Source of the DNA: a virus | DNA length: 21,243 nt | Strand: one strand, 5' to 3' | IMG/VR virus record: IMGVR_UViG_3300042471_000742 | Coordinates: 1-21,243 of that record | In this document: positions 4,333-21,243 of the stretch, in pieces | Layout: every line of letters starts with the position of its first letter | Position numbering within the stretch: position 1 is the first letter of the stretch | The notes under the pieces: generated by a model | Told to the model about the DNA's origin: nothing | The model's input: only the letters and a program-made list of their open reading frames with translations | The model's database searches: none | Position numbers and translations under genes: made by a program

Positions 4333-4348
4333 AAGTAGGTAAACAAAT

Positions 4349-4422
4349 GGGCTAGTAACTCAGTGGAACAGAGTAACGCTCTTCTAAAGCGTGAGTCGTT
4401 GGTTCGAATCCAACCTAGCCCG
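4349..4422 (+). tRNA. tRNA-Arg(UCU)
   Basis: Acceptor stem GGGCTAG/CTAGCCC, D-arm ACTC/GAGT, anticodon stem ACGCT/AGCGT with loop CTTCTAA (anticodon TCT), T-arm GTTGG-TTCGAAT-CCAAC, discriminator G. It reads AGA, a codon frequent in the AT-rich phage genes. CCA is not encoded. Confidence 0.95.
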
Positions 4423-4425
4423 TAT

Positions 4426-4507
4426 GTCGTTGTGGCGGAATTGGTAGACGCACTGGGTTTAGGTTCCAGTAGATTAATCTGTGAAGGTTCAAGTCCTTTC
4501 AACGACA
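4426..4507 (+). tRNA. tRNA-Leu(UAG)
   Basis: Acceptor GTCGTTG/CAACGAC, anticodon stem CTGGG/TCCAG with loop TTTAGGT (anticodon TAG), a long class II variable arm and T-arm with GTTCAAGTC. Starts three bases after tRNA-Arg, so both share one transcript. A promoter -35 box begins two bases after its discriminator. Confidence 0.94.
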
Positions 4508-4508
4508 C

Positions 4509-4537
4509 TTGACAATCAAACTTAAATGGTTTATGAT
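4509..4537 (+). promoter_or_regulatory. Sigma-70 type promoter inside the tRNA cluster
   Basis: TTGACA (4509-4514), 17-nt spacer, TATGAT (4532-4537), identical boxes and spacing to the promoter at 4304. An inverted repeat ACAATCA/TGATTGT (4512-4518 with 4534-4540) overlaps both boxes and could be a binding site or only a coincidence. Starts transcription about 4 nt before tRNA-Gly. Confidence 0.78.
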
Positions 4538-4547
4538 TGTTTCATAT

Positions 4548-4618
4548 GCGAATGTGGTGTAGCGGTAACATCCCATCCTTCCAAGTTGGTGTCACGGGTT
4601 CGATCCCCGTCATTCGCT
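4548..4618 (+). tRNA. tRNA-Gly(UCC)
   Basis: Acceptor GCGAATG/CATTCGC, anticodon loop CTTCCAA (anticodon TCC), T-arm ACGGG-TTCGATC-CCCGT, discriminator T. The anticodon stem CCATC/GTTGG has one T-T mismatch, which is odd but tolerable. Reads GGA. Confidence 0.9.
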
Positions 4619-4620
4619 CT

Positions 4621-4634
4621 GAACCTTCGGGTTC
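4621..4634 (+). other. UUCG-tetraloop hairpin between tRNA-Gly and tRNA-Asn
   Basis: GAACC-TTCG-GGTTC forms a 5-bp stem closed by C(UUCG)G, an exceptionally stable loop. It lies two bases after tRNA-Gly and four bases before tRNA-Asn. Likely a processing spacer or 3' end stabiliser; the following TTATT is too weak for a good terminator. Confidence 0.6.
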
Positions 4635-4638
4635 TTAT

Positions 4639-4711
4639 TCCCCTATAGCTCAATTGGCAGAGCACGGTGCTGTTAACACTGGGGTTGTTCGTTCGAGTCG
4701 GACTGGGGGAG
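4639..4711 (+). tRNA. tRNA-Asn(GUU)
   Basis: Acceptor TCCCCTA/TGGGGGA with one G-U pair, D-arm GCTC/GAGC, anticodon stem CGGTG/CACTG around CTGTTAA (anticodon GTT), T-arm GTTCG-TTCGAGT-CGGAC, discriminator G. Confidence 0.93.
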
Positions 4712-4713
4712 TA

Positions 4714-4831
4714 GGGAGGACTGGAAATGTCTGGGACTTCCTCTAAATCCTAAGTTTTCTTAGGTCGGGGACTTGATCACCCCCGTTCGTTGCGGAGAGT
4801 GTCTTCCGCGAGTGGTGGGCACTCACTACTC
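4714..4831 (+). ncRNA. Candidate structured RNA between tRNA-Asn and tRNA-Val
   Basis: About 120 nt without a plausible ORF but with successive hairpins: GAGGA/TCCTC (4716-4720 with 4739-4743); a perfect CCTAAG-TTTT-CTTAGG (4749-4764); CGGGG/CCCCG (4766-4770 with 4781-4785); GCGGA/TCCGC (4792-4796 with 4805-4809); and GAGTGGTG/CACTACTC (4810-4817 with 4824-4831, one G-U). The region is visibly richer in G and C than the flanking coding DNA. It lies within the tRNA transcript, in the same kind of setting as the stable RNAs C and D of the T4 tRNA cluster. It resembles no riboswitch or tmRNA that I know. A decayed tRNA is less likely because no T-arm consensus is left. Confidence 0.5.
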
Positions 4832-4835
4832 ATTT

Positions 4836-4907
4836 GGGCGATTGGCGCAGCGGTAGCGCAGCTGCTTTACACGCAGACGGTCATTGGTTCGAATCCGATA
4901 TTGCCCA
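4836..4907 (+). tRNA. tRNA-Val(UAC)
   Basis: Acceptor GGGCGAT/ATTGCCC with one G-U pair, D-arm GCGC/GCGC, anticodon loop TTTACAC (anticodon TAC) on a CTGC/GCAG stem, T-loop TTCGAAT, discriminator A. Reads GTA. Confidence 0.92.
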
Positions 4908-4911
4908 CTTG

Positions 4912-4919
4912 CATAAATA
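4912..4919 (+). promoter_or_regulatory. Late promoter box (CATAAATA) before dps
   Basis: CATAAATA differs from the T4 late consensus only at the first base and lies 16 nt before the Dps start codon, so the leader would be very short. It may give the ferritin gene its own late expression apart from the tRNA transcript. Confidence 0.5.
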
Positions 4920-4935
4920 TTGTAAAAAGAGTATA

Positions 4936-5370
4936 ATGGAAAAACTGTTTAAACTCTTAAGTGATGCTCAGTCATCACTTTTTGTTTTGTTTCATAAAAC
5001 TTGGGCATTTCATTGGAATGTAATTGGAGAAGATTTTACTCAACTTCATCAACTCTTTGGTGGACAATATGAAACTATGTTTGAAGAGATTGACAGACTC
5101 TCTGAACATATGAGATACTTAAATATTAAACCACTGAGTTCTCTTTCAAGAATGCTTGAGGTAACTCAAATCAAAGAAGCATCAAGTTCAACTGGAGCAA
5201 AAGAAATGCTTCAAGAGCTCTTGGATAACAACACCAAGTTTTGTGAATTAATGCAAGAGATTTCAGAAGAATCTGAAGAACAAAAACAATACGCAACTGC
5301 TAACTTGGTCCAAGATTTAATGGAATCTCATGGTAAATTTGTTTGGCAATTAAGATCACATTTACAGTGA
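4936..5370 (+). CDS. Dps-family ferritin-like DNA/iron protection protein
   Basis: A 144-residue protein with the Dps/ferritin four-helix pattern. The ferroxidase-site residues of Dps are visible: His26 in F-H-W-N-V, His38 in Q-L-H-Q-L, and Asp53 and Glu57 in I-D-R-L-S-E. Dps proteins form 12-mers that oxidise Fe(II) with peroxide and store it, limiting Fenton damage; some also bind DNA. The N terminus is short and lacks the Lys-rich tail used by E. coli Dps for DNA binding, so iron and peroxide handling seems the more likely role. The ATG at 4936 is chosen because upstream extension would run into tRNA-Val. A zinc-ribbon gene follows after 15 nt. In a cyanophage it could guard the photosynthesising host or sequester iron late in infection. 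Confidence 0.85.
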   Translation: MEKLFKLLSDAQSSLFVLFHKTWAFHWNVIGEDFTQLHQLFGGQYETMFEEIDRLSEHMRYLNIKPLSSLSRMLEVTQIKEASSSTGAKEMLQELLDNNTKFCELMQEISEESEEQKQYATANLVQDLMESHGKFVWQLRSHLQ

Positions 5371-5385
5371 ACAGGACAAAAAACA

Positions 5386-5631
5386 ATGATTATCGTAAGA
5401 TGTAGAGATTGCAATAAAGAAATTGCAAGTACAAATAAAACTCAAACTTGTGGTTGTCCAAATATGATGACTGTAAGAGGTGATAACGTATCCGCAGTTG
5501 ACTTAAGTAGAGTTATTATGGTAAACTCTACACAGAAAGAACAAAAGAACTTTCTAACAACACAAGATATTGCCTGGCAAGAGGCAAGACGCCAACGTAA
5601 AGTAAAGCGTTTGGATTTTGAAATTCGATGA
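5386..5631 (+). CDS. Small zinc-ribbon-like protein (81 aa)
   Basis: Begins MIIVRCRDCNKEIAS with a C-x2-C knuckle (Cys6, Cys9) and has a second pair C-x-C (Cys22, Cys24), giving a four-cysteine metal site in the first 25 residues. The rest is hydrophilic with a basic C terminus (EARRQRKVKRLDFEIR) that could touch nucleic acid. No enzyme domain is apparent. It sits 15 nt after the Dps gene and 10 nt before tRNA-Ser, so co-transcription with Dps is likely. Function unknown. Confidence 0.75.
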   Translation: MIIVRCRDCNKEIASTNKTQTCGCPNMMTVRGDNVSAVDLSRVIMVNSTQKEQKNFLTTQDIAWQEARRQRKVKRLDFEIR

Positions 5632-5641
5632 ATTTCTTTAT

Positions 5642-5728
5642 GGAGAGTCAATCCGATTGGTGACGGAACCTGTCTTGAAAACAGTTGAGGTGTTAAAGCC
5701 CTTGGGCGTTCGACTCGCCCACTCTCCG
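5642..5728 (+). tRNA. tRNA-Ser(UGA)
   Basis: Acceptor GGAGAGT/ACTCTCC, D-arm TCC/GGA, anticodon stem CTGT/ACAG around CTTGAAA (anticodon TGA), long class II variable arm and T-arm GGGCG-TTCGACT-CGCCC, discriminator G. Reads TCA. Confidence 0.95.
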
Positions 5729-5786
5729 TTTAAATGGTTACGAACTTAACAATTTCTTTAATAGTGTTATGAACTAAACACAATTA

Positions 5787-5819
5787 TTGACGTTTAAAAT
5801 TGTGCAATTAGTATATATT
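5787..5819 (+). promoter_or_regulatory. Probable early promoter for the small-protein operon
   Basis: TTGACG (5787-5792) with TATATA or TATATT 19-21 nt downstream. The spacing is longer than ideal. The 110-nt stretch from tRNA-Ser to the next ATG (5839) holds nothing else recognisable. Confidence 0.45.
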
Positions 5820-5838
5820 AGTAATATGCACAAAACCC

Positions 5839-5988
5839 ATGGATCAGCATACTTATGAGAACTGGGTGAAAATTAAAACAACTCTTGAATCTTCTGGTAA
5901 TATTAATAATATATTTTATAAAAGAGCAGTAGAAATTGTTAAAACACGAAGAGATCCTCTCGCAAAATATCTTGGAGATGAGAAATGA
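5839..5988 (+). CDS. Small hypothetical protein (49 aa)
   Basis: A 49-residue basic, soluble-looking peptide starting MDQHTYENWVKIKTTLES and ending PLAKYLGDEK. Its stop overlaps the next start as ATGA (5985-5988), strong evidence for translational coupling and for a real gene. It is the first of five tightly packed tiny genes running to 6651. No family recognised. Confidence 0.6.
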   Translation: MDQHTYENWVKIKTTLESSGNINNIFYKRAVEIVKTRRDPLAKYLGDEK

Positions 5989-6167
5989 TGCACGAACAAG
6001 ATGAACTTGTAAGTCGATCTGAAGTTCAGGAGATGATCGAACAATCTATTTCAACTGCAATTAAGAATCATGAGATTCGTGTGGGGTGGATTAGTGGAAT
6101 AATCGGAGCACTTTTTGTTTTTGGTATTATTCATTCAATATGGTTGATAAAGAATTTGATTCGGTAA
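5985..6167 (+). CDS. Small single-pass membrane protein (60 aa)
   Basis: An acidic N-terminal helix with a regular heptad look (MMHEQDELVSRSEVQEMIEQ, residues 1-20), then a basic patch and one transmembrane segment (about residues 34-54, WISGIIGALFVFGIIHSIWL), ending in KNLIR. Starts in an ATGA overlap with the previous gene. The layout of an amphipathic helix plus a membrane anchor is typical of small phage accessory or holin-like proteins, but no family is recognised. Confidence 0.65.
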   Translation: MMHEQDELVSRSEVQEMIEQSISTAIKNHEIRVGWISGIIGALFVFGIIHSIWLIKNLIR

Positions 6168-6168
6168 A

Positions 6169-6456
6169 ATGGAAATTTTTTATTTCATTCCTTTTATTGT
6201 TTTATTACTGATCGCAACATCTATGGTAATACAGGGTTGGATGGTCGTTCATGAATCGCACGGGTATCGTGAAAATCCAAGGGTCAAAGGGCATCCAGAG
6301 ATGAGAGGAGTTAAAAAAGGAGACGGATTAATGGTAGTAAATTTTGATAGAATGCCAGATGATGATTATAATGAACTATATAATCGTATTCAAAAATTAA
6401 AAATGGAAGAATTGTTTGAAGAACCCTCTAAGTACGAAGACGAAGAAAATGACTAA
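6169..6456 (+). CDS. Small membrane-anchored protein (95 aa)
   Basis: N-terminal transmembrane segment (about residues 3-24, IFYFIPFIVLLLIATSMVIQ) followed by a hydrophilic domain with a basic patch (RVKGHPEMRGVKKGD) and a strongly acidic C terminus. It starts one base after the stop of the 60-aa gene and overlaps the next by 8 nt. The soluble part contains L-M-V-V-N-F, a probable beta strand. No family recognised; position suggests it works with the neighbouring membrane peptides. Confidence 0.68.
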   Translation: MEIFYFIPFIVLLLIATSMVIQGWMVVHESHGYRENPRVKGHPEMRGVKKGDGLMVVNFDRMPDDDYNELYNRIQKLKMEELFEEPSKYEDEEND

Positions 6457-6538
6457 AGTATTCATATCAACAATTTTGCTTCTTAGTTCAATTGGATTGT
6501 TTATAATGTGGGGAGTTTCGCACGCATATTCACAATGA
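6449..6538 (+). CDS. Tiny membrane peptide (29 aa)
   Basis: MTKVFISTILLLSSIGLFIM followed by WGVSHAYSQ: essentially one hydrophobic helix, either a membrane anchor or a signal-peptide-like segment. It overlaps the gene before by 8 nt and the gene after by 4 nt (ATGA), which supports translation despite its size. Confidence 0.5.
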   Translation: MTKVFISTILLLSSIGLFIMWGVSHAYSQ

Positions 6539-6651
6539 TTTTTCACATCGTAGAAGCACTTGCATCAAGTCCAATCTGGTTGGGACTTTGCGGAGCAGGC
6601 TTGACAGTCGTTCCAATCCTGGGTATAATGCTTATACACCGAAATAAATAA
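6535..6651 (+). CDS. Tiny membrane peptide (38 aa)
   Basis: A 38-residue peptide beginning MIFHIVEALASSPIWLGL, with one Gly-rich hydrophobic segment (about residues 15-34) and a basic end H-R-N-K. Starts in an ATGA overlap with the 29-aa gene. Its coding sequence also contains a perfect consensus sigma-70 promoter (6601-6629), so the DNA serves two purposes. Function unknown. Confidence 0.5.
   Translation: MIFHIVEALASSPIWLGLCGAGLTVVPILGIMLIHRNK
6601..6629 (+). promoter_or_regulatory. Perfect consensus sigma-70 promoter before tRNA-Pro
   Basis: TTGACA (6601-6606), exactly 17 nt, TATAAT (6624-6629): full consensus in both boxes with ideal spacing. The expected start lies about 24 nt before tRNA-Pro. 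It is embedded in the coding region of the 38-aa peptide. Confidence 0.85.
6643..6650 (+). promoter_or_regulatory. Possible late promoter box (AATAAATA)
   Basis: AATAAATA matches seven of eight bases of the T4 late box and overlaps the stop codon of the 38-aa peptide. Could give late expression of tRNA-Pro and the antitoxin-like gene. Chance occurrence is possible. Confidence 0.3.
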
Positions 6652-6659
6652 AGGCACTT

Positions 6660-6733
6660 CGGAATGTAGCTCAGTTTGGTAGAGCACTCGCTTTGGGAGC
6701 GAGATGTCGCAGGTTCGAATCCTGTCATTCCGA
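6660..6733 (+). tRNA. tRNA-Pro(UGG)
   Basis: Acceptor CGGAATG/CATTCCG, D-arm GCTC/GAGC, perfect anticodon stem CTCGC/GCGAG around TTTGGGA (anticodon TGG), T-arm GCAGG-TTCGAAT-CCTGT, discriminator A. The C1-G72 pair is typical of bacterial proline tRNA. Confidence 0.96.
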
Positions 6734-6749
6734 TCATAAAACTCACTTT

Positions 6750-6986
6750 ATGAATAAAATGAATCAAGAAATCGACGAACTTCAGTCTTTTACAATCGAA
6801 GAGTTTCAGGCAGATTTTGATAATCTGATAGACAAAGTTCAAAATGGTGAATCATTCTTGATAAAAAGTGAGCACGGAAATGCAATAATGGTTCCTTACA
6901 ACGAAGTCATACGAATATGTGAGGAATCAAATGTGGATTTTGAAGAGATAGTTAAAATTCACACAGATCACGAAGAAGGTTCGTGA
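6750..6986 (+). CDS. Phd/YefM-like antitoxin (prevent-host-death fold)
   Basis: A 78-residue protein with the layout of the Phd/YefM antitoxin family: an N-terminal strand-helix (FTIEEFQADFDNLIDKVQNG, residues 14-33) followed by E-S-F-L-I-K-S-E-H-G-N-A and I-M-V-P-Y-N-E-V, matching the family pattern of x-EFxxNxxxxLDxVxxGE, a short beta hairpin and a V-P-Y-E-E-like end. The acidic C terminus could be the toxin-binding part. The ATG at 6750 is chosen because the frame upstream lies within tRNA-Pro. No toxin gene is adjacent: tRNA-Ile follows 7 nt later. It might neutralise a host toxin or act as a small repressor. Assignment rests on motif recognition only. Confidence 0.62.
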   Translation: MNKMNQEIDELQSFTIEEFQADFDNLIDKVQNGESFLIKSEHGNAIMVPYNEVIRICEESNVDFEEIVKIHTDHEEGS

Positions 6987-6993
6987 TTTTTAT

Positions 6994-7065
6994 GGGAATA
7001 TAGCTTAATGGTTAGAGCGGCCTGCTTATAACGGGTTAGTCTGGGTTCAACTCCCAGTATTCCTA
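6994..7065 (+). tRNA. tRNA-Ile(UAU)
   Basis: Acceptor GGGAATA/TATTCCT with a terminal G-U pair, D-arm GCTT/GAGC, anticodon loop CTTATAA (anticodon TAT), T-arm CTGGG-TTCAACT-CCCAG, discriminator A. Reads ATA, which most bacteria decode with a lysidine-modified CAU tRNA, so a true UAU anticodon is notable. Confidence 0.88.
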
Positions 7066-7069
7066 CCTT

Positions 7070-7142
7070 GCTGGTTTACCCATCTGGTGATAGGAGCGTC
7101 CTCATAAGACGATATAGGCGTGTTCGATCCACGCAACCAGCA
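7070..7142 (+). tRNA. tRNA with CAU anticodon (Met or Ile2)
   Basis: Acceptor GCTGGTT/AACCAGC, anticodon loop CTCATAA (anticodon CAT) on a CGTC/GACG stem, T-arm GCGTG-TTCGATC-CACGC, discriminator A. The D-arm is atypical: CCCA/TAGG pairs only with a C-A mismatch and lacks the usual G10. Sequence alone does not decide between elongator Met and lysidine-dependent Ile; with tRNA-Ile(UAU) four bases upstream, Met is a little more likely. Confidence 0.8.
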
Positions 7143-7143
7143 C

Positions 7144-19355: not shown

Positions 19356-20002
19356 AACTCAACGAAATTAAAACTTATTACATTAATCTTGATAAGGATG
19401 AAGAGAAGAAGGAGAGTATGGAAAGGATGCTCTCTGAACTTGGATTTGATTATGAAAGATTTCCTGGAGTTCAGGCAGAATGGGGTTGTGAAAAAAGTCA
19501 TCATAAACTTCTTTCCGAAGGATTAAAGGCACCGTTCATTGTTCTTGAAGATGATTGTGTTTTGAAAAATCAAGTGATTGATCTTGGAGTTCCCGAGGAC
19601 ATTGATTTTATGTATCTTGGAATTTCTGCTTTTGGATATTATAATGGAAATATTACTGGAGTTTTATATAAACAAATGACAGATGAAGTGAGTAGAGTAT
19701 ATAATATGCTTTCTACTCATGCAATGTTGTATCTGTCAGATAACTATGCTAACATGGTAAAAAATATCGCATATTATTGTGGATATAAAGCAAATCAACA
19801 TTTTGATAAATCAATTGCTGAAATGGCAAAGTATTATGAAGTTTATGCTTTAAACAATCCAATGTTTTACCAAGATACTTATAACAAAGAAGCAACTTTT
19901 TATGATTTAAGAAAATATGAGATTTCAAAAAATATTGACCAAGTAAAAGAACCAAGTATTGTTAGACCTGAACCAATTAAATTCGATGACCAAAGCAATT
20001 AA
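19352..20002 (+). CDS. GT25-family glycosyltransferase, first copy
   Basis: A 216-residue protein of the LPS-type glycosyltransferase family 25: Y-Y-I-N-L-D-K-D-E-E-K-K (9-20), G-C-E-K-S-H-H-K-L-L (45-54) and the metal site V-L-E-D-D-C (64-69). Family members add galactose or similar sugars to LPS outer core or capsule. It is shorter than its neighbour and the region after the catalytic core is diverged. Overlaps: 4 nt before and 17 nt after. Confidence 0.83.
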   Translation: MKLNEIKTYYINLDKDEEKKESMERMLSELGFDYERFPGVQAEWGCEKSHHKLLSEGLKAPFIVLEDDCVLKNQVIDLGVPEDIDFMYLGISAFGYYNGNITGVLYKQMTDEVSRVYNMLSTHAMLYLSDNYANMVKNIAYYCGYKANQHFDKSIAEMAKYYEVYALNNPMFYQDTYNKEATFYDLRKYEISKNIDQVKEPSIVRPEPIKFDDQSN

Positions 20003-20798
20003 TACTTCAACAATCAAAAAGAAAATCAAAGGATTTGGTCCAATTTATTGGATTAATCTTGATACTGATGTTGAAAGAAAGGAAAAGGCTGAAGAACTTT
20101 TTAAGTACTACGATATTCCCAATACTCGAATTTCTGGATTTGATGGCAGAAAAGAGGATTTGAGTGTTTATCTTGAGGGTAATGTTCCACCTCAAATGAA
20201 CTCTGGTGAAGTTGGTTGTACCTTGTCTCACCTCAAAGCACTCAAATACTTTTTAGAGGAAACAAATGATGATATTGCAATCATTTGTGAAGATGATATT
20301 GTCTTTGACACCATAGAATATTGGCCCTTTAATTGGAAACTTTTTATGGAAAGTCTTCCATATGATTGGGATTGTTTGCAACTATCAATTACAAGTACGG
20401 GCAATCTTGTTGGAAATTTGCACCCAAGAATTCTTACAAATTTTTGTACAGTGTGTAATGTTTTTACAAGAAGGTATGCAGAAAAACTTGCTCATTTTCA
20501 TTTTAGAGGTGATAAGTATAAAATTGATAATGGTGTAAAACCGAGAGCAGTTGCGGATGAAATTCTGTTTAATGCTGGTAAAACATATTCAATGCCATTG
20601 TTTGTCTATCGTTATGATTTTAGTTCTAACATTCATCAAGATCATGTAGAAGTTTTTCACAAACATAATGTAGAAGCAATTATGAAATTCTGGCAAGAAA
20701 GTGGGTATCACGTTCCTATCAGTAACTTGTTGGACTATGATTATTATGATCACTATATGAAACCAGTTACTAAACCCTCTATGGGAAGTTCTTCTTGA
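19986..20798 (+). CDS. GT25-family glycosyltransferase, second copy
   Basis: A 270-residue GT25 protein: I-Y-W-I-N-L-D-T-D-V-E-R-K (20-32), G-E-V-G-C-T-L-S-H-L-K-A (74-85), the acid triad I-I-C-E-D-D-I (99-105). It shares the same three motifs in order with the preceding gene, so the pair probably arose by duplication and later split acceptor or donor specificity. ATG 19986 gives a 17-nt overlap; an upstream TTG would run far into the previous gene. It is the last gene of the operon; 102 nt follow before the porin, and they contain a new late promoter but no terminator that I can see. Confidence 0.87.
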   Translation: MTKAINTSTIKKKIKGFGPIYWINLDTDVERKEKAEELFKYYDIPNTRISGFDGRKEDLSVYLEGNVPPQMNSGEVGCTLSHLKALKYFLEETNDDIAIICEDDIVFDTIEYWPFNWKLFMESLPYDWDCLQLSITSTGNLVGNLHPRILTNFCTVCNVFTRRYAEKLAHFHFRGDKYKIDNGVKPRAVADEILFNAGKTYSMPLFVYRYDFSSNIHQDHVEVFHKHNVEAIMKFWQESGYHVPISNLLDYDYYDHYMKPVTKPSMGSSS

Positions 20799-20820
20799 CT
20801 GATCCCAAAAAAACTGTTAA

Positions 20821-20828
20821 GATAAATA
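20821..20828 (+). promoter_or_regulatory. Late promoter box (GATAAATA) for the porin gene
   Basis: GATAAATA differs from TATAAATA at the first base only. It lies 72 nt before the porin start, so the mRNA would have a leader of about 65 nt containing the hairpin at 20850. Confidence 0.6.
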
Positions 20829-20849
20829 CCGTGAAGTGACGAATGCCGC

Positions 20850-20865
20850 AACTATTTGCATAGTT
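20850..20865 (+). other. Leader hairpin of the porin gene
   Basis: AACTAT-TTGC-ATAGTT is a perfect 6-bp hairpin with a 4-nt loop in the untranslated leader. It may protect the 5' end of the transcript; no ribosome site overlaps it. Confidence 0.45.
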
Positions 20866-20900
20866 ACTCAAATGTCGTTTAGTACTAAAAAACAAACTTT

Positions 20901-21243
20901 ATGAAACTCAATCAACTGATGCTTGCACCTGTTGCTCTGGGTATGGTTGCTCCTGTTGCTGCGAATGCCGCAGAACTGAATATGGTAGCAGTCAATCAAT
21001 ACTCCGAGAATCAGGTTACAAGTATTTCTCAATTCTCTGATGTCCGTCCTACCGATTGGGCATATCAGGCACTTAACAACCTTGTAGATCGTTATGGTTG
21101 TGTTGCTGGTTATCCTAACGGCACCTTTGGTGGTGGTAAGGCGATGACTCGTTTTGAGGCAGCTGCTCTTCTGAATGCTTGCCTTGATCGTGTATCAGAA
21201 ACCACTGACGAACTTCGTCGTCTTCTTAATGAATTTCAAGGAG
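20901..21243 (+). CDS. Cyanobacterial-type SLH-domain outer-membrane porin, N-terminal part (3' truncated by window)
   Basis: The first 114 residues of a porin of the cyanobacterial iron-uptake/SomA type. A signal peptide (1-23, MKLNQLMLAPVALGMVAPVA then A-N-A) is followed by a linker and one SLH domain (about 45-97): F-S-D-V-R-P-T-D-W-A-Y-Q-A-L, Y-G-C-V-A-G-Y-P-N-G-T-F, A-M-T-R-F-E-A-A-A-L-L-N-A-C-L-D-R-V. The paired cysteines (Cys67, Cys94) are conserved in this family. The SLH domain binds peptidoglycan-linked polymer and anchors the beta barrel in the outer membrane. After it a coiled-coil segment begins (E-L-R-R-L-L-N-E-F). Codons such as CTG, CGT, GCT and ACC stand out from the AT-rich cassette before it, suggesting a later acquisition from the host. 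The barrel lies outside the window. Confidence 0.85.
   Translation, partial: MKLNQLMLAPVALGMVAPVAANAAELNMVAVNQYSENQVTSISQFSDVRPTDWAYQALNNLVDRYGCVAGYPNGTFGGGKAMTRFEAAALLNACLDRVSETTDELRRLLNEFQG

Follow-up and report, generated by a model that had tools for sequence, protein, structure and literature searches.

A wall-anchored outer-membrane porin gene carried by a virus of freshwater cyanobacteria and by related viruses, probably for surface upkeep and the entry of phosphate and ions

Introduction

A virus of freshwater cyanobacteria bears a gene for a pore of the outer membrane pinned to the cell wall, which would probably serve surface upkeep as well as phosphate and ion entry. The gene lies at the 3' end of a stretch of viral DNA of 21,243 nucleotides (hereafter the window), which is a whole IMG/VR virus record and whose last open reading frame is cut by the end of that record. 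That the gene encodes a phage-borne SLH porin of a cyanobacterial family is near certain, and the initial observation of an SLH porin gene on a phage is thereby confirmed. Concerning its function, which we infer, we read it as an auxiliary gene for an SLH-stalked porin of the SomB/OmpM kind, devoted to phosphate and ion uptake and to the upkeep of the envelope; we give this reading an even chance of being right.

The porin gene and its full-length relatives

The 5' part of the gene, 114 codons, starts with an ATG and occupies positions 20901-21243 on the + strand, in a reading frame (20901-21242) that is still open at the window end. This 114-aa fragment alone already scores 105.9 bits against NCBIfam NF033921, the SomB-type "iron uptake porin", for a cut-off of 100. 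Its product begins with a signal-peptide-like N-terminus of 24 aa (MKLNQLMLAPVALGMVAPVAANAA, 20901-20972, +), read by eye and near-invariant among the phage relatives. An SLH domain then follows (Pfam PF00395, residues 45-88, 21033-21164, +; 43.7-45.2 bits for a cut-off of 20.8), for which a peptidoglycan-linked polymer is the expected ligand, and then the start of a predicted coiled-coil stalk (21177-21243, +), placed there by the AlphaFold model of the relative L003, in which a helix spans residues 103-136 after the SLH domain. Since the window is the entire record, its own gene end is not visible: only the SLH domain and the start of the stalk can be seen in it, and the barrel is known from full-length relatives.

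Three contigs (L002-L004) carry the same 342 nt at 98.2% nucleotide identity within a complete 492-aa gene, to which the window fragment is 99% identical in amino acids. The isolate phage S-SRM01 has a complete relative annotated "porin" (QPX48248.1), which is 94% identical over the window part. Complete relatives match NF033921 over the whole profile (286 bits, 1-485 of 485) and Pfam OprB over positions 2-372 of 372, in addition to SLH, and read from the sequence they combine the signal-like N-terminus with a C-terminal F. For L003, AlphaFold predicts a helical stalk followed by 16 strands, with a barrel pLDDT of about 90 (blocks mostly 86-97) and an SLH part of low confidence, and Foldseek with this model matched OprB (4gey) and OmpM1 (8bys/8bym). 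The first-pass annotation had left it to the rest of the gene to show whether a barrel is present; modelling now places one in relatives at 99% amino-acid identity. According to Pfam and AlphaFold, the full-length relatives thus have the organization of the SomB-type class, which is one SLH domain, a stalk and a 16-strand outer-membrane barrel. PHROGs gave no match for the window fragment and, with the full-length porins as queries, nothing convincing (best E 0.82), and an Rfam search of 20700-21243 gave no match at E up to 1.

The SLH/OprB porins of cyanobacteria (SomA/SomB, Slr1841/Slr1908; NF033921) share with the phage porin the same domain order and a full-length family match. They differ from it in that the phage porin reaches at most about 50% identity with the nearest ones found and has extracellular loops shorter than the picocyanobacterial ones. 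OmpM1 of Veillonella parvula (8bym, 8bys), a tether as well as a channel, also has one SLH domain per chain, a coiled-coil stalk and an outer-membrane porin barrel, but it belongs to another phylum with another wall ligand, and the phage porin is known as a single-chain model.

Phage origin and selection

A scan of viral sequences gave at least 585 encoding stretches, 80 of which were kept for analysis. A complete porin gene is found in more than 70 viral loci; the 14 records considered whole (13 large contigs and S-SRM01) all contain exactly one copy, and 7 of these also carry a T4-type portal. A tree that also includes cyanobacterial porins unites 35 phage sequences in a single clade (SH-aLRT 99). 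Two smaller lineages of phage porins (L041/L062 and L039/L079) are placed outside of it, so that up to three acquisitions are possible. The contigs of both minor lineages are too short for the portal test, and their phage nature is taken from gene matches to S-SRM01. The nearest true host porins found share no more than about 50% identity with the phage porin. Across the whole gene, dN/dS is about 0.08-0.19, which indicates purifying selection. By its clade, the portals and this ratio, the gene has attributes of an auxiliary metabolic gene: it is host-derived, borne by bona fide phage genomes and under selection.

The gene had been called host-type, and this holds for the family, which is cyanobacterial, but not for the sequence, which belongs to a separate phage clade. 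The same is true of its codon use, said to be unlike that of the neighboring AT-rich cassette: the GC content of the fragment is indeed higher (0.45 vs 0.33-0.37), but its GC3 of 0.29 falls within the range of genes proper to this phage (0.21-0.30) and not near the 0.75 of a host porin. A gene of host-type family that is cut by a contig end might also come from an assembly chimera with a cyanobacterial chromosome, which the first-pass annotation had envisaged together with a frame broken shortly after the window. Because the same gene occurs in many independent phage contigs, complete in most of the loci, and in the isolate S-SRM01, it is not a chimera, and for the porin family we regard this origin as refuted for all practical purposes. 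The phage clade stands apart from the host porins, other contigs show the same GT25-porin order, and close relatives have full frames.

A few observations concern the databases and the start of the gene. One full-length 69% match is filed under a Microbacteriaceae MAG and groups inside the phage clade, and three cyanobacterial or cyanophage porin contigs (L085, L118, L141) are found under Microbacteriaceae and Bifidobacterium breve MAGs, where mis-binning is likely. Within the phage clade, the synonymous divergence of porin codons 1-42 is below the whole-gene value in 8 of the 8 pairs tested. This low divergence in the part for signal peptide and linker perhaps reflects a constraint at the mRNA start, or else a recombination joint.

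Promoter and leader

The porin has its own promoter. A sigma70-type element, TTGACT-N17-TAAGAT, lies at 20795-20823 on the + strand (-35 at 20795-20800, -10 at 20818-20823), and its -35 hexamer is overlapped by the stop of the preceding gene, a GT25-like gene (19959-20798, +) that is the last of a glycan operon. A sequence search places a late-type box, GATAAATA, over the -10 (20821-20828, +), so that sigma70 hexamers and NATAAATA are superimposed upstream of the porin at 20795-20828. Elsewhere in the 21 kb, the + strand has NATAAATA boxes only at 2433, 4912, 6643 and 8889, and the S-SRM01 genome has 90 of them on the + strand vs 7 on the - strand. The gene had been described as lying behind a phage late promoter. 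This is half right, since the late-type box is present but overlaps the -10 of a canonical early-type promoter, which is as frequent in relatives: among 47 distinct upstream regions, the sigma70-type element (searched as TTGA[CT]-N17-19-TAnnnT) is found in 36, the TAAATA box in 37 and both in 27. Overlap of early and late promoters has been described in cyanomyoviruses, where it could substitute for middle transcription (PMC2984593). S-SRM01 has just two copies of the fused element, one at the porin and one at 207175, about 200 nt before the annotated psbA.

The late-type box is the one feature that would suit a virion component binding the host wall through its SLH domain, a role also put forward by the first-pass annotation. 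We found no evidence for it: the signal-peptide-like start, the full barrel and the early-type promoter all oppose it, and in S-SRM01 the porin is located away from the structural genes, which makes this role highly improbable.

Some relatives have a further element. The sequence CTTAAG-N5-CTTAAG-N5-CTAAATA is found upstream of the porin in L011, L012, L029, L038, L051, L060 and L077, and this Pho-box-like tandem repeat lies at about -82 to -138, immediately before the -10 and late box. With a looser copy in L070, it is present in 8 of the 47 distinct upstream regions, vs 0.27 in shuffled sequences; upstream of the window porin it is absent. For membership in the Pho regulon, we looked for half sites of the Pho box in tandem, spaced by 11 bp and preceding a -10. 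The Pho box has the form CTTAAC, from which the phage CTTAAG repeats differ, and six picocyanobacterial genomes showed no Pho box ahead of pstS.

Downstream of the promoter, the 5'UTR contains a hairpin with a conserved loop, CGCAACTATTT (20838-20868, +), which is supported by covariation: in 18 distinct relatives, 7 of its 8 pairs changed on both sides, and its positions are 86% paired vs 18-40% in slid controls. In the window itself the hairpin is weak (z -0.09), and some relatives have other possible hairpins in its place. A conserved leader, TGTCGTTTAGTACTAAAA.. (TGTCGTTTAGTAC), then leads to the ATG (20873-20900, +); its core motif is found in 68 of 80 porin loci, and no Shine-Dalgarno sequence is evident in it. 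A small upstream open reading frame that ends on the porin ATG, noticed by eye in the window, was rejected, its frame being lost in relatives.

This leader also marks a boundary. Identity to L002-L004 (98.4%) begins at 20870, and the adjacent GT25 gene is just 64% identical to theirs in nucleotides; in amino acids, the window product is 46% identical to the GT25 encoded ahead of the porin in L003. Against S-SRM01 and L005, identity begins at 20793-20794, which is the promoter. Because identity starts at the leader or promoter beside diverged neighbors, the porin gene seems to move between phages as a mobile cassette with joints in its leader. The S-SRM01 porin has the same promoter, hairpin and leader as the window, but it is found behind a tRNA and before Dps and not behind a glycan operon. 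Its annotated start is 18 nt downstream, and the word "porin" is absent from the main text of the S-SRM01 paper.

Neighboring genes and phosphate

We compared the surroundings of 81 porin loci. Upstream of the porin there is a glycan gene in 34, a tRNA in 37 and something else in 8, and 2 are cut short; as the loci are related, such neighbor counts are not independent. The new observation is downstream, where pstS directly follows the phage porin in 31 of the 63 loci with enough sequence, vs 1 of 70 in a second phage SLH family with an 8-strand barrel, described below (Fisher p about 1e-11, uncorrected for relatedness). The encoded PstS belongs to TIGR00975 (261-266 bits), and the adjacency occurs in both contexts, on the glycan side (11/25) and on the tRNA side (16/28). 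We did not find this pairing of phage pstS and phage SLH porin in the literature searched. Among cyanobacteria, an SLH porin followed by pstS was seen in four filamentous-type loci (mostly Oscillatoria), and in six picocyanobacterial genomes no SLH porin adjoins pstS. In the 102 pstS-bearing phage records, PstS identity is below 60%.

The proposal that the phage alters the nutrient uptake of the infected cell is supported by this neighboring pstS. In Prochlorococcus, the porin PhoE is increased more than 15-fold together with PstS at low phosphate (PMC3349580), and cyanophage pstS and the Prochlorococcus phoE/pstS genes share their phosphate-acquisition logic with the porin-pstS pair. Several facts speak against phosphate. 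Half of the porin loci, among them those of the closest relatives L002-L004 and of S-SRM01, have no pstS next to the porin, and the S-SRM01 genome has no pstS match anywhere. Another is iron: the NCBIfam name designates an iron uptake porin, as does an S-CREM1 annotation, and the Slr1908 mutant of Synechocystis contains about 40% less iron (PMC8707739). However, the name NF033921 covers general SLH porins, and the neighbors compared include no recognisable iron transport gene. Because it is pstS that adjoins the porin, we favor phosphate and consider iron uptake improbable as the main role. The net charge of the barrel, tried as a sign of phosphate selectivity, has no link with the presence of pstS, which also weighs against phosphate, as do the divergent form of the Pho-box-like repeats and their absence before the window porin; the occurrence of these repeats in some relatives weighs in its favor.

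Cyanobacterial SLH porins combine the passage of inorganic ions with stabilisation of the outer membrane (PMC10628300, PMC8707739), and in phage S-PM2 the SLH gene ranks with those transcribed earliest and most strongly (PMC2984593). We infer when the window phage would express its porin, where the product would reside, what it would let through and how the phage would benefit. Early in infection, the host polymerase would transcribe the gene from its sigma70-type promoter, and a second round of transcription would probably start from the overlapping late box. The porin would be exported and inserted in the outer membrane of the infected cell, where its SLH domain would fix it to the wall. During the shut-off of host synthesis it would hold the outer membrane to the wall, and it would also act as a channel for small ions, chiefly phosphate. 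The PstS that many relatives add would capture the phosphate passed by the porin for the host PstCAB. The phosphate genes known from phages (pstS, phoA) work in the periplasm. With a pore in the outer membrane, phage control would reach the first barrier as well, and the porin-pstS pair makes a testable two-step uptake module.

A second SLH family and outer-membrane tethering

T4-like cyanophages also carry shorter SLH proteins of about 280-290 aa, which share the SLH domain and the stalk with the porin. They include S-PM2p168 ("putative S-layer protein"), whose gene is directly behind a tRNA-Gly, and S-CREM1_199 ("iron uptake porin"), and their relatives are found in 150 stretches (including L185-L264). 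They differ from the porin in that a 288-aa relative is predicted, at a moderate mean pLDDT of 66, to have an OmpA/Ail-like 8-strand barrel after the stalk in place of the 16-strand pore. The 15 large contigs tested all carry one such mini-barrel gene and no full porin. The two families are never together in the 31 records considered (these 15 contigs, S-PM2, S-CREM1 and the 14 porin records), most of which are fragments. Forty of 78 mini-barrel loci are behind a tRNA, mostly tRNA-Gly, and porins occupy such sites too, as if the two were interchangeable.

All this would also be expected if the role were mainly mechanical, the phage protein tying the outer membrane to the wall to prevent blebbing and failure during infection, with the pore secondary. 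The second family retains the SLH stalk with its predicted 8-strand barrel, and the loss of SLH/OprB porins in Synechocystis causes hypervesiculation (PMC8707739). Yet pure tethering does not predict that pstS accompanies the pore form, and the mutual exclusion could be lineage history in records that are mostly fragments; we hold a mainly mechanical role to be rather unlikely. A tentative model, possible in our eyes, is that T4-like cyanophages have one slot for a wall-anchored outer-membrane protein, filled by one and only one of two interchangeable forms. Outer-membrane tethering would be the general need, the 16-strand pore would add phosphate uptake and tend to bring pstS, and the other form would be a closed 8-strand barrel. 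Pore and closed-barrel forms would then be a natural experiment that separates tethering from transport in cyanobacterial envelopes.

Loops and the cell surface

Summed, the extracellular loops measure 111-128 aa in porins of the phage clade, vs a picocyanobacterial mean of 164, and the strands and periplasmic turns are similarly long in both. The phage porin could be thought to replace the surface, diluting the host porins used as receptors by phages or grazers and blocking superinfection along with the glycan genes, and a 2010 review proposes a protection role for the S-PM2 SLH protein (PMC2984593). The porin does directly follow the glycan operon in many loci, but slightly more have it behind a tRNA instead. 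Filamentous cyanobacterial porins have short loops too (122-136), so that short loops may be ancestral and loop trimming in the phage porins is not proven. Purifying selection acts on the loops as it does on the remainder of the porin, and they are not hypervariable. A surface replacement is thus unlikely in our view. As for the combined remodelling of the host surface that the glycan operon had suggested, the adjacency is real in those loci, but other loci have a tRNA in that place, and the porin has a promoter of its own. The window also has nine tRNA genes, at 4348-7143, and its porin sits elsewhere.
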